Below, one piece after another: positions 4,308-9,480 of a stretch of 40,028 bases of DNA. The DNA comes from Flavobacterium sp. (lineage in GTDB: Bacteria; Bacteroidota; Bacteroidia; Flavobacteriales; Flavobacteriaceae), in contig JAHEHC010000004.1 of NCBI GenBank assembly GCA_024644805.1, positions 1-40,028 on the forward strand, read 5' to 3'. The notes beneath the pieces are model-generated. The model was not told the origin of the DNA, did not search any database, and saw only the letters and a list, made by a program, of their open reading frames with translations. The translations under genes were made by a program, and so were the position numbers. How positions within the stretch are numbered: position 1 is the stretch's first letter; every line of letters starts with the position of its first letter.

Positions 4308-4329
4308 ATTTAAACTATTTTTTTGAAGA

Positions 4330-4347
4330 TTTGACAATCGTGTCAAA
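4330..4347 (-). promoter_or_regulatory. Leader hairpin downstream of the metK aptamer (candidate expression platform)
   Basis: Perfect 7-bp stem TTTGACA/TGTCAAA with a 4-nt loop; its downstream strand can instead pair over 10 bp with the aptamer loop (4394-4403). Confidence 0.6.
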
Positions 4348-4350
4348 GGA

Positions 4351-4410
4351 AGTTCACACTGCCTTTTAGCATTTTTTTTTGAGGTTGCAATCAGTCAAAT
4401 CTTTCCTCTT
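4351..4410 (-). ncRNA. SAM-II-type (metA motif / SAM_alpha) riboswitch aptamer upstream of metK
   Basis: Minus-strand RNA AAGAGGAAAGAUUUGACUGAUUGCAACCUCAAAAAAAAAUGCUAAAAGGCAGU: P1 GAGG/CCUC, GAUUU…UUGCAA loop, A-rich linker, GCUAAAAGG segment and possible pseudoknot ACUG/CAGU; matches the remembered SAM-II core (…GAUUUAACCGUAUUGCAAGCGCG…AAAUGUAGCUAAAAAGG). Confidence 0.82.
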
Positions 4411-4423
4411 AATTTTTGTTCTG

Positions 4424-4431
4424 CAAAAGTA
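4424..4431 (-). promoter_or_regulatory. Candidate metK promoter -7 element TACTTTTG
   Basis: Exact TAnnTTTG on the minus strand; places the start site only a few nt before the aptamer. Confidence 0.55.
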
Positions 4432-4481
4432 AAAAAATATTGTGAATCCTATTTCTCTTTGTAATTTTTTATCGAAAATAT

Positions 4482-4512
4482 TTGGATAATTGATTATATG
4501 AACAAATATTTG
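4482..4512 (+). promoter_or_regulatory. Candidate metH promoter: TTG (4482-4484), N20, AATATTTG (4505-4512)
   Basis: One mismatch to TAnnTTTG with a TTG at the expected -33 spacing; lies upstream of the S-box. Confidence 0.4.
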
Positions 4513-4543
4513 CGCTATCAAAGTTCAAACACTTATTGAAATT

Positions 4544-4648
4544 GTTATCAAGAAAGGTGGAGGGATTGGACCCTTTGAAACCTTAGCAACCCTTTATCAG
4601 TAAAGTAGGTGCTAAATTCTACTGGATCAAATTGATCAGATAGATAAC
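4544..4648 (+). ncRNA. SAM-I (S-box) riboswitch upstream of metH-metF
   Basis: P1 GTTATC/GATAAC; conserved core ATCAAGAAAGGTGGAGGGATTGGACCCTTTGAAACCTTAGCAACCC; P3 GTAG-GTGCTAAATT-CTAC; P4 GATCA-AAT-TGATC. Confidence 0.95.
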
Positions 4649-4653
4649 CCAAA

Positions 4654-4674: not shown

Positions 4675-4851
4675 ATCATTCTTTATAACATTTTTCTATT
4701 AAGTACGTCACCAATTGACGCATTTGGCTTATGATTGAATGTATGTAATACAGAGAATTAGAAAAATGATAGTAACGACCTATTGTCTATTTTATCAGAA
4801 TGATCCATTACAATGGACCATTAATAGAAAAAAAAATAATTGATCATCACT

Positions 4852-7800
4852 ATGGCAAATGTATTGAAGGAATTGAAGAATAGGATATTAGTGCTTGATG
4901 GAGCCATGGGTACCATGTTGCAGCAATATGATTTCTCAGAAGAGGATTTTCGAGGTGATCGATTTAGGGACTGGGAAGTTTCATTGAAAGGGAATAACGA
5001 CCTGTTGTCGATCACTCAACCTAAAGCAATTTCGGAAATTCATGCCAAGTACCTGGAAGCAGGTGCAGACATTATTGAGACCAACACATTTTCCGCTACG
5101 AGTATAGCCATGGCAGACTATCAAATGGAAGAAATGGTGTATGAAATCAATGTGGAATCAGCCAGGATCGCCAAAGAGATAGCTGAAGAGTTCACAGGAA
5201 GAACTCCTCAAAAACCCAGATTCGTTGCTGGAAGTATCGGTCCTACGAATAAAACGGCAAGTATGTCTCCCGAAGTGAATGATCCCGGATATAGAGCTAT
5301 CACCTTTGACGAGCTAAGATCAGCCTATAAATTGCAAGTTGAAGCCTTATTGGATGGTGGAGTGGATCTATTACTTGTAGAGACCGTTTTTGACACTCTC
5401 AATGCTAAAGCGGCTTTGTTTGCCATTGAAGAGGTCAAGGAAGAACGAAATATCGATGTGCCCATAATGGTGTCCGGTACCATTACGGATGCTTCGGGAA
5501 GAACGTTGTCCGGACAAACGGTAGAAGCTTTTTTAGCCTCTATTTCCCATATTCCATTGTTGAGCATCGGTTTCAATTGTGCTTTGGGTGCAGAGCAACT
5601 CAAGCCCTTTTTAAAAAGACTATCAAGGGATACTTCCTTCTTTACCTCAGCCCATCCAAATGCCGGATTACCCAATGCATTTGGAGAATACGATCAGACA
5701 CCCCAGCAAATGATGCAATTGATCGAGGAATACCTTCAGGAAGGACTGATCAATATAATTGGAGGATGTTGCGGAACCAATCCGGATCATATCAGAAAGA
5801 TCGCTATAATAGCCAGCGAGCACAAACCCAGGAATTGTGCTGAAGTCAAAATTTCAGATAAAAGATACTTGACCCTATCTGGATTGGAATCATTGGTCGT
5901 AACACCAGAGAGCAACTTTATCAATGTGGGTGAACGAACTAATGTAACGGGATCCAGAAAGTTCCTAAGACTCATTCAAGAGGACAACTACGATGAAGCT
6001 ATTGAAATTGCAAGACTTCAAGTTGAGGACGGTGCTCAGATCATCGATGTGAATATGGACGAAGCCATGATAGATGGTGTGCAGGCCATGACCAGATTCC
6101 TTAATCTTATCGCCTCTGAACCGGACATTGCAAGAGTTCCTATTATGATCGATTCATCCAAATGGGAGATCATTGAGGCAGGACTTAAAGTAGTTCAGGG
6201 GAAATGTGTTGTTAACTCGATAAGCTTAAAGGAAGGGGAGGAAGAATTTATCAGACAGGCGAAATTGATAAGACGGTATGGTGCAGCAGTCATCGTCATG
6301 GCATTTGACGAAACAGGGCAGGCAGACAGTTTTCAGAGAAGGATATCTATTTGTAAAAGATCCTATGATATACTGGTGAATACCGTTGGTTTCCCTCCCG
6401 AAGACATCATATTCGATCCCAACATCTTTCCGGTAGCAACTGGTATGGAAGAACATAGAAGGAACGCAATAGATTTTTTCAAGGCTACAAAATGGATCAG
6501 AGAACAGTTAGCCCATTCAAATGTTTCGGGAGGAGTCAGTAATGTGTCCTTTTCATTTCGAGGGAACAACAGCATCAGGGAAGCCATGCATTCGTCCTTC
6601 TTATATCATGCGATCGAGCATGGAATGAACTTGGGAATCGTAAATCCATCCCTATTAGAAGTTTATGACGAGATCGATGAAGAACTATTGGAGCATGTTG
6701 AGGATGTATTATTGGACCGGAGAGAGGATGCCACAGAACGATTGATGGACTATTCAGAGACCGTAAAAGGAATTGTAAAGGAGTCCAATGTGGAAGTTCA
6801 GGAATGGAGAACAGAGCCTTTACAAGACCGAATTACCCACGCATTGGTAAAAGGGATTGATGCATTTATAATCGAAGATGTAGAAGAGGCCAGAATGGAA
6901 TCCGAAAAGCCCATCGATGTCATTGAAGGACATTTGATGATCGGAATGGATGTGGTTGGTGAGTTGTTCGGAAGTGGAAAGATGTTCTTGCCACAAGTGG
7001 TGAAATCGGCCAGAGTGATGAAGAAGGCGGTAGCCTATCTTCAACCTTATATTGAGAAGGAAAAAGGGGGTAGATCAGAATTTGCCGGAAGAATTGTCAT
7101 GGCAACTGTAAAAGGGGATGTACATGATATTGGAAAGAACATAGTGAGTGTTGTACTGGGATGTAATAATTATGAAGTGATCGATCTTGGGGTGATGGTA
7201 CCTCTTGAAAAGATCATCGATACCGCGATCAAGGAACAGGCCGATATCATAGGTCTAAGTGGTTTGATCACTCCATCCTTGGACGAAATGGTTTATGTTT
7301 CCATGGAAATGGAAAAACGCAAATTGAGTATTCCATTGATCGTTGGAGGAGCGACTACGTCAAGGGTGCATTCAGCAGTTAAGATCGCTCCCAATTACAG
7401 TCATGCAGTAGTACATGTCAATGATGCTTCTAAGGCTGTAACAGTAGTGGGCAATCTGTTGAATAAGAACAAAGAACGGTATATGGACCAGATCAGGACG
7501 GAATACAACACATTTAGAGATCAGTTCTTATCACGTAACAGAAAAAAAGAGTTTTTAAGCATTGAAGATGCCAGGAATAATAAATTAAGGATCGATTGGA
7601 GTTCGACCAGGATCATGAAGCCTACCAAATTGGGAATTGATATTTTAGATGATTTCGATCTAACCCTATTATTGGATTTCATCGACTGGACCCCATTCTT
7701 CAGGAGTTGGGAGTTACACGGAAAATTCCCGAACATTTTGGAAGACGAAATAATCGGAGAACAGGCAACAGCCTTGTACCATGATGCTCAGAACTTGTTG

Positions 7801-8520
7801 AAAAGGATTATCGATGAAAGACTTTTAAAAGCAAAAGCAGTATTTGGACTATTCGCTTCGAATTCAGTACATGACGATATAGAACTGTATGATCAAGATA
7901 GGGAGATATTAAATACCTTCATCACGCTTCGTCAGCAATCAAAGAAGAGAGATGGAGTTCCTAATGTAGCTTTGTCCGATTTTATAGCTCCTAAAGAATC
8001 GGGAATTGAAGATTATATGGGTTGTTTTTGTGTTACAGCTGGATTCGGTACGCAGGAATTGGCCCAACAATTTGAAGAGGCTCACGATGATTATAGTTCG
8101 ATTATGATCAAAGCCATTGCCGATAGATTGGCTGAGGCATTTGCCGAGTATCTGCATAAGGAGGTGCGAACCAGATATTGGGGATATGCCTCGAATGAGG
8201 ATCTGTCAAACGAAGACATCATAAAGGAAAACTACCGTGGTATACGTCCAGCACCGGGCTATCCTGCATGTCCAGATCATTTGGAAAAAAAGACCATATG
8301 GGAAGTATTGAATGTAAAGGAAAATATAGGAGTAGAGCTGACGGAAAGTATGGCTATGTGGCCTGCAGCAAGCGTTAGCGGGTATTATTTTGCAAATCCA
8401 GAGGCCAGATATTTCGGTCTGGGAAAAATTAAGAACGATCAATTGGAAGATTATTCCAAGCGAAGAAAAATCTCTGTTGTTGAGGCCGGAAAATGGCTGA
8501 ACCCAAATTTAAATGAATAG
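4852..8520 (+). CDS. metH: B12-dependent methionine synthase, full length (Hcy, pterin, cobalamin and activation domains in one chain)
   Basis: [37 protein letters not shown] (B12-binding DxHxxG), C-terminal AdoMet activation domain [12 protein letters not shown]. Confidence 0.98.
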
Positions 8521-8523
8521 TCA

Positions 8524-9480
8524 ATGAAAGTAACTGACCACATTAAAAATGCCAATGGCAAGACCCAATTCTCATTTGAGATATTACCACCATTAAAAGG
8601 CGAACATCTGCAATCGATCTTCGACAATATCGATCCCTTGATGGAATTCAATCCTCCGTTCATCGATGTGACCTATCACCGTGAAGAATACATATATAAG
8701 GAATTGGAGAACGGTCTGTTGAAGAAGAAGATTGTAAAAAAACGCCCGGGTACGGTTGGGATCTGCGCTGCCATTCAAAATAAGTATCAAGTGGATGCCA
8801 TACCCCATATCCTGTGTGGAGGGTTTACCACTGAAGATACCGAGAACTTTCTAATAGATCTCGATTTTTTAGGAATTCAGAATGTCATGGCCCTTCGGGG
8901 AGACCCGGTCAAGAGTGAAACGTATTTCAAGCCCGATAAGGAAGGGCATGCCTATGCCAGCGATCTGGTGAATCAGATCCAGGAATTGAACCTGGGAAAC
9001 TATCTGGACGATGAGTTATTGAATACGTCCAAGACCGATTTTTGTATTGGAGTAGCGGCTTATCCTGAAAAACATGCAGAGGCTCCAAGTTTGGATAGCG
9101 ATATTTATTTTTTAAAGAAAAAAATTAAGAAGGGGGCCAATTACATCGTTACGCAAATGTTCTTTGATAATCAGAAGTATTTTGACTTCGTTAAGAAATG
9201 CAGGAATGAGGGTATTACAATTCCAATCATACCGGGATTGAAGCCCATTGCTACCAAGAAGCAACTCAATTTAATACCCCATCGTTTTAAAGTGGATCTG
9301 CCTGATGAACTGATACACGAAGTGTTGAATTGCAAGAATAATGAACAGGTCAGACAGGTAGGCGTTGAATGGTGTGTCAACCAGTCTAAAGAACTCAAGA
9401 AAGCAGGTATACCCGTATTGCATTATTATTCCATGGGGAGAAGTGACAATATCAGGTCGATCGCTTCACAAATATTCTAA
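8524..9480 (+). CDS. metF: Methylenetetrahydrofolate reductase
   Basis: FSFEILPPLKG, ALRGDP, FFDNQKYFDFVKKCR…IPIIPGLKPI motifs; 3 nt after metH. Confidence 0.96.
   Translation: MKVTDHIKNANGKTQFSFEILPPLKGEHLQSIFDNIDPLMEFNPPFIDVTYHREEYIYKELENGLLKKKIVKKRPGTVGICAAIQNKYQVDAIPHILCGGFTTEDTENFLIDLDFLGIQNVMALRGDPVKSETYFKPDKEGHAYASDLVNQIQELNLGNYLDDELLNTSKTDFCIGVAAYPEKHAEAPSLDSDIYFLKKKIKKGANYIVTQMFFDNQKYFDFVKKCRNEGITIPIIPGLKPIATKKQLNLIPHRFKVDLPDELIHEVLNCKNNEQVRQVGVEWCVNQSKELKKAGIPVLHYYSMGRSDNIRSIASQIF

Follow-up and report, generated by a model that had tools for sequence, protein, structure and literature searches.

What does a bacterium gain from placing two structurally unrelated sensors of one ligand, S-adenosylmethionine (SAM), in a single short promoter region, and how would each act on the gene behind it? 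The region between metK and metH-metF raises this question in the window, by which we mean the whole stretch of 40,028 nucleotides of Flavobacterium DNA analysed here. Scanning the window by cmscan against all Rfam families at gathering thresholds returned exactly two matches: SAM-I (RF00162) in the plus-strand leader of metH, with 81.9 bits against a cut-off of 44.4 (E=5.7e-18), and the "long loop" SAM-II (RF01726) in the minus-strand leader of metK, with 65.4 bits against a cut-off of 44 (E=1.5e-10). The SAM-I alignment spans model positions 1-108 with all four helices aligned, and a gap of 127 bp separates the two aptamers (Table 1). Each class occurs once in the assembly (2.2 Mb, 87.6% complete). 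With both matches above cut-off and the downstream genes identified by their Pfam domains, the presence of two unrelated SAM aptamer classes back to back between metK and metH-metF is confirmed. A first-pass annotation of the sequence had described just this arrangement, namely a SAM-II-type aptamer for metK and an S-box for metH on opposite strands about 130 bp apart, and its gene names agree with the Pfam domains. It was right about the SAM-II class and wrong about the sub-family: the SAM_alpha model (RF00521) that it had named reaches 20.2 bits at the same site, below its cut-off of 36, and was rejected as the metK aptamer. The absence of a significant SAM_alpha hit thus reflects the wrong Rfam sub-family having been named. 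The annotation had overlooked the recurrence of the pair across the order, the anti-aptamer strands, and the metY/metB character of the SAM-I leader with its additional small ORF ahead of metH. The metK start codon was placed at 4307-4305 by reading the frame and by tblastn matches, and the proteins nearest to MetK come from Gelidibacter (82%) and from G030, a complete genome (81%), followed at 79-80% by Winogradskyella and by members of the genus to which the window belongs. A chimeric contig was considered as the source of the pair and rejected: flavobacteria supply the best matches to MetK, and the layout recurs elsewhere, including in a genome that consists of a single complete contig.

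Table 1. Features of the metK/metH region, ordered by position in the window
Feature	Coordinates	Strand	Basis
metK, S-adenosylmethionine synthetase, 424 aa	3033..4307	minus	Pfam PF00438, PF02772, PF02773 (all three MetK domains)
Anti-aptamer strand GTCAAATCTT, 19-28 nt before the metK start codon	4326..4335	minus	co-varies with aptamer core across families
Alternative hairpin TTTGACA-cgat-TGTCAAA, which would form when the aptamer keeps its own core	4330..4347	minus	sequence
SAM-II long-loop aptamer, P1 GAGG/CCUC, predicted P2 pseudoknot	4356..4414	minus	RF01726, 65.4 bits
Aptamer core strand AAGATTTGAC, predicted partner of the anti-aptamer in the SAM-free state	4394..4403	minus	perfect 10-bp complement downstream, p=0.015 vs shuffled leaders; kept in relatives
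metK promoter, -7 box TACTTTTG, Bacteroidota type TAnnTTTG	4424..4431	minus	sequence; box common to 88/90 SAM-II loci
metH promoter, -7-like box AATATTTG	4505..4512	plus	imperfect TAnnTTTG; conserved in aligned leaders; many family-wide DNA matches start here (query 206)
Conserved block GTTCAAACACTTATTGAA between promoter and P1	4523..4540	plus	kind present in 45/71 GTTATC-type SAM-I leaders
SAM-I (S-box) aptamer, metH leader	4542..4650	plus	RF00162, 81.9 bits
Hairpin CAGAATTT-tccac-AAATTCTG right behind P1	4654..4674	plus	related leaders: different sequence, pairing kept, same place (by eye)
Anti-P1 strand TTCTTTATAACA, complement of the SAM-I P1 5' side with one mismatch	4679..4690	plus	aptamer nucleotide 2 co-varies
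Anti-start strand CATTTTTCTA	4689..4698	plus	10-bp complement of 4759-4768, p=0.03
Small hairpin TACGTC..GACGCA, loop of the sequestering stem	4704..4722	plus	sole terminator-like pattern match
TAGAAAAATG, start-codon region at the ancestral metY/metB start position	4759..4768	plus	family-wide DNA matches and alignment
25-codon ORF (predicted only), stop 8 nt ahead of metH	4766..4843	plus	sequence
metH, B12-dependent methionine synthase, 1222 aa, full-length	4852..8520	plus	Pfam PF02574, PF00809, PF02607, PF02310, PF02965
metF, methylenetetrahydrofolate reductase	8524..9480	plus	Pfam PF02219

The combination extends well beyond the window. In a sample of 248 genomes from the same order (Flavobacteriales, judging from its named members), SAM-II is found in 174/248 and SAM-I in 148/248, and comparison of the per-genome tables places both classes in 139/248. 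Across a phylum sample SAM-I is nearly universal (135/158), and SAM-II, apart from one weak match, occurs outside this order in just one other family of the class. Among the listed sites (150 of each class), at least 25 genomes in five families carry the two aptamers within 140 bp of each other. Further close divergent pairs are present in G030 and 13 more family members, as well as in Winogradskyella jejuensis, Gelidibacter maritimus, Lacinutrix venerupis and two Aequorivita, five named genomes that may overlap with the other sampled ones. In W. jejuensis the two arms carry the genes found in the window, metK behind SAM-II and metH behind SAM-I; among the examined genomes of the window's own genus, the pair was seen in the window genome only. 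In members of one family (f11; G092, G201, G171 and others) the aptamers are just 65-70 bp apart, a spacing that implies facing promoters with overlapping upstream regions and possibly interference between polymerases. Two observations concern detection of SAM-II. Several flavobacterial copies (L098, L117, L136, L205, L293) carry extra hairpins of varying length in the loop before the A-rich stretch, which lower Rfam scores and keep copies hidden, and three strongly reduced genomes of endosymbiont size (0.6 Mb; G038, G142 and G157 of family f16) give weak matches with E of about 5e-4 to 8e-4.

Does such proximity mean that the two sensors work together? The close pairing may well be no more than gene order, inherited or repeatedly formed, with the aptamers as neighbours lacking functional coupling and the use of two classes carrying no meaning, and we rate this reading only a little below an even chance. 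In many relatives the two classes are distant from each other or share a strand, and the divergent partner of SAM-II-metK is variable (metH, metY or a metB-like gene). A second frequent layout indeed has SAM-II-metK followed by a same-strand SAM-I-metY about 1.4-1.5 kb on (L183, L222, L160, L203, L215, L230 and others). On the other hand, none of the 25 pairs lying within 140 bp departs from the divergent orientation, and several families keep a close divergent arrangement with differing genes behind SAM-I; both facts speak against that reading, yet by themselves they are no proof of coupling.

How the SAM-I arm would act is suggested by the leader downstream of the aptamer. Upstream of the aptamer, the first-pass annotation had placed a metH promoter (TTG/-7 at 4482-4512); its -7-like box is conserved in relatives, but it matches TAnnTTTG imperfectly. 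Between this box and P1 lies a block of the GTTCAAACACTTATTGAA type, which recurs in 45/71 GTTATC-type SAM-I leaders against 0.2 expected and is absent in CTTATC-type leaders; it forms a TTCAA/TTGAA inverted repeat outside the Rfam model. Behind the aptamer, the leader holds a complement of the 5' arm of P1, and part of this strand also complements a start-codon region. The second aptamer nucleotide and the anti-P1 strand vary together (T:A 15, A:T 8, others 3; Fisher 7e-5), and the would-be partner of that nucleotide within P1 pairs in just 2/26, as expected for an anti-P1 helix rather than for P1. The second complement behaves likewise: the two strands change together as TGACAT/ATGTCA, GTCATAG/CTATGAC, CATTTTTCTA/TAGAAAAATG and CATTTTTTTTTAA/TTAAAAAAAAATG, and the window's own pair is shared with Lacinutrix, Gelidibacter, Olleya and Aequorivita. 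The genes behind SAM-I are metH-metF in the window, and metH, metY, metX or a metB-like gene among its relatives. Where other families have close pairs, metH stands behind SAM-I, usually 45-65 nt past the aptamer, and the complement reaches its start codon. In 40/49 leaders the start codon of the SAM-I gene has a lower accessibility than in shuffled sequences. Ensemble pairing between P1 and the leader showed no overall excess over shuffles in the same 49 leaders (25/49 below, p=0.13), despite which the complementarity and co-variation are clear at the sequence level. In the window itself, modelled SAM binding shifts the accessibility of the AUG at 4766 slightly in the wrong direction (0.16 to 0.27). 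A start-codon complement that competes with the aptamer is thus conserved among relatives, while the window's own modelled SAM-I switch is weak.

The start codon predicted to be sequestered in the window is not that of metH. Its leader belongs to the long metY/metB type of its family, not to the short metH type, and in the alignment it runs through the post-P1 hairpin, the anti-P1 strand, CATTTTTCTA, the small hairpin and TAGAAAAATG. Family-wide DNA matches in dozens of genomes stop at query position 470, window position 4769, which in relatives lies just beyond the start codon of a metY or metB-like gene. The AUG at 4766 therefore corresponds to the metY/metB start site of relatives, and metH stands behind a captured leader. 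This AUG now opens a 25-codon ORF that has no Pfam match. It is possibly the decayed 5' end of metB, a borderline case in which 12 to 162 of 500 shuffles scored as well as the metB-remnant alignment. Some relatives have SAM-I followed by a metB-like gene, a homoserine dehydrogenase-like gene (read by eye) and metH, and others have metH directly behind the aptamer. The most plausible history of the window is a loss of the first genes, which would have left the leader with its sequestered start codon, the 25-codon ORF and metH. From the position of the ORF stop immediately before metH, we propose that metH is controlled by translational coupling. In another genome of the genus (G250; L126:1501-1580), metH directly follows a SAM-II aptamer whose P2 strand runs straight up to the start codon (GCTAAAACATAATG); here the pseudoknot may occlude the start codon directly, and metH has exchanged its class of SAM sensor inside one genus.

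Capture could also have released metH from control, the leader now governing the 25-codon ORF only and metH being translated from its own AUG. We regard such an escape as rather doubtful, yet it has a clear basis: the complement covers the AUG at 4766 and not that at 4852, the metH start lies 86 nt further on, and the modelled accessibility of the metH AUG in the window is unchanged on binding. Against it, the anti-start pair is perfectly preserved in the window, some relatives have metH in third place in this operon, where it may already have been under the leader, and an ORF that ends 8 nt before metH favours coupling.

The SAM-II arm is more uniform. SAM-II copies, located by their Infernal coordinates, precede metK in 90/91 loci of the order, with the start codon 42-112 nt past the aptamer. 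The Bacteroidota -7 consensus is TAnnTTTG (PMC7366714), and TAnnTT[T/C]G lies 4-25 nt upstream of P1 in 88/90 SAM-II loci against 5.2 expected, which places the aptamer at the very 5' end of the mRNA. Both the metK -7 box proposed in the first-pass annotation, read as TACTTTTG at its position, and the view that each aptamer begins near the 5' end of its own transcript hold up. The covariation that it had suggested looking for in P1 and P2 is also present: P1 holds a compensatory change (UA:28/AU:11, all 39 paired, none broken), P2a is 86% paired with CG and UG variants, and there are 13 double-change cells against 4.4 in shuffles, a count reached in 0/500 shuffles.

Downstream, a strand close to the metK start codon is complementary to the aptamer core, and this complementarity is maintained as the core changes. 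The two strands read GCCAAATC against GATTTGGC in the best-sampled family and GTCAAATC against GATTTGAC in the window and its relatives, and relatives with the core ATTTGTCTGATTGC have the anti-aptamer GCAATC instead. The variable pair inside the core is G:C in 25 and A:T in 3 leaders with zero mismatches, and at the flanking pair a C faces the aptamer in 4/4 leaders where the aptamer has G and in 0/23 where it has A (Fisher 6e-5). Most of the co-variation in the core sets one family against another. Over 89 metK leaders, folded with programs that ignore the SAM-II pseudoknot, the expected number of aptamer-to-leader pairs is 20.0 against 9.3 in dinucleotide shuffles (higher in 86/89), and the folding energy is below that of shuffles in 89/89. 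Modelled SAM binding changes the accessibility of the start region by -0.073 in real leaders and by +0.033 in shuffles, the real value being below the shuffled one in 80/89. Since the leaders are related, p-values of such comparisons are too small by an unquantified factor; the direction of the effects is consistent across most families. The window's leader has 16.8 aptamer-to-leader pairs, matched by 0/20 shuffles, and its start region falls in accessibility from 0.77 to 0.63 on modelled binding. Its global fold is no better than that of shuffles (z=-0.85), so the case for metK is a comparative one.

Either riboswitch, or both, could instead act by premature transcription termination, as SAM-II aptamers often lie upstream of terminators in Proteobacteria (PMC2258182; PMC9481103). 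The metH leader does contain a T-run (CATTTTTCT) and one weak terminator-like match (4706-4720, 0.2 expected). The T-run, however, is not preceded by a G+C-rich stem and forms a co-varying complement of the start region, most relatives offer only the short interval described above between SAM-I and the metH start, where the complement reaches the start codon, and a pattern search returned no terminator-like match in the metK leader. We therefore consider termination unlikely. It is more improbable still that the window's SAM-II is weakened or dead through an extra nucleotide in the P2a linker (GCUAAA-AGG-CAG, one nucleotide longer than the GG of close relatives, with one nucleotide in most copies), which shifts the P2a strand, given that linker length varies (1-2 nt) among otherwise intact copies and that all core positions and the anti-aptamer are kept in an aptamer scoring 65.4 bits.

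Taken together, the two arms are likely to be independent translational OFF switches, each repressing its own operon at high SAM by sequestering a start region. We infer SAM binding, the direction of switching and a translational rather than transcriptional output from the conserved aptamers and the co-varying strands. Without SAM, the metK leader would form a long hairpin in which 4326-4335 pairs with the core at 4394-4403 and the start region is relatively open; with SAM, the pseudoknot would form, and 4326-4335, once released, would re-pair locally and make the start region less accessible. In the metH leader, SAM would favour P1, freeing the strand 4679-4698 to pair with the start codon at 4759-4768, and without SAM the same strand could pair with the 5' side of P1 instead. 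The control is probably exerted by hiding the start codon and not a ribosome-binding site. In F. johnsoniae, translation makes no use of Shine-Dalgarno (SD) sequences and is modulated by the structure around the start codon (PMC6847099), and start-region sequestration is favoured as being consistent with both features. That the two arms respond at different SAM thresholds or employ different mechanisms, as had been suggested, is a conjecture; the comparative evidence suggests that both act on translation initiation, through different anti-aptamer strands. A wider picture is also conceivable, and we offer it tentatively as unlikely to hold in full: a conserved, order-wide SAM node, in which a single short promoter region with an unrelated aptamer on each strand would give SAM synthesis and methionine supply separate and different SAM responses, both by start-region sequestration suited to ribosomes that ignore SD sequences, and which would stay stable while operons are swapped behind the SAM-I arm, as with metH captured behind a metY/metB leader and a remnant start codon.

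Both classes co-occur in more than half of the sampled genomes of a large order, and one promoter region is often common to both. With such co-occurrence, single culturable strains, W. jejuensis among them, can be used to test why several sensor classes exist for one ligand, and the leaders provide a clear model for riboswitch control of translation without Shine-Dalgarno pairing. In an earlier survey, Barrick and Breaker (2007) found no species with both classes, SAM-II there being the RF00521 type only (PMC2258182); the long-loop RF01726 type was described by Weinberg in 2010 from Bacteroidetes and marine sequences (PMC2864571), and a review of tandem riboswitches covers pairs on the same transcript, not divergent ones (PMC9481103). 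No divergent SAM-II/SAM-I pair was found in the open literature searched. Both aptamers are ordinary members of known families; what is apparently undescribed, in that open literature, is their conserved pairing at a close divergent spacing, together with expression platforms directed at the start region.

The metK leader resembles the known RF01726 RNAs in aptamer sequence, in its P1 and predicted P2 pseudoknot and in its site before a SAM-pathway gene (PMC2864571), and differs in features that we did not find described in the literature searched: the link to metK with a conserved anti-aptamer and proposed start-region control, and the close divergent SAM-I. The metH leader shares with other S-box RNAs (RF00162) the whole aptamer, its site before methionine genes and P1 as the switching helix, but would sequester a start codon, that of a small ORF before metH, using a strand whose alternative partner is the 5' arm of P1. 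Tandem bi-mechanism systems (SAM-II/SAM-V and SAM-II/SAM-I-IV; PMC9481103) likewise unite two SAM aptamer classes at one locus, yet on one transcript and for one gene, whereas the window has opposite strands, two transcripts and two operons. In Sinorhizobium, SAM-II controls metA and metZ, the class again repressing a methionine gene, metA at the level of translation; there the SD of metA lies inside the aptamer, whereas in flavobacteria, which make no use of SD sequences, control of the start region would be exerted at a distance (PMC9373788).
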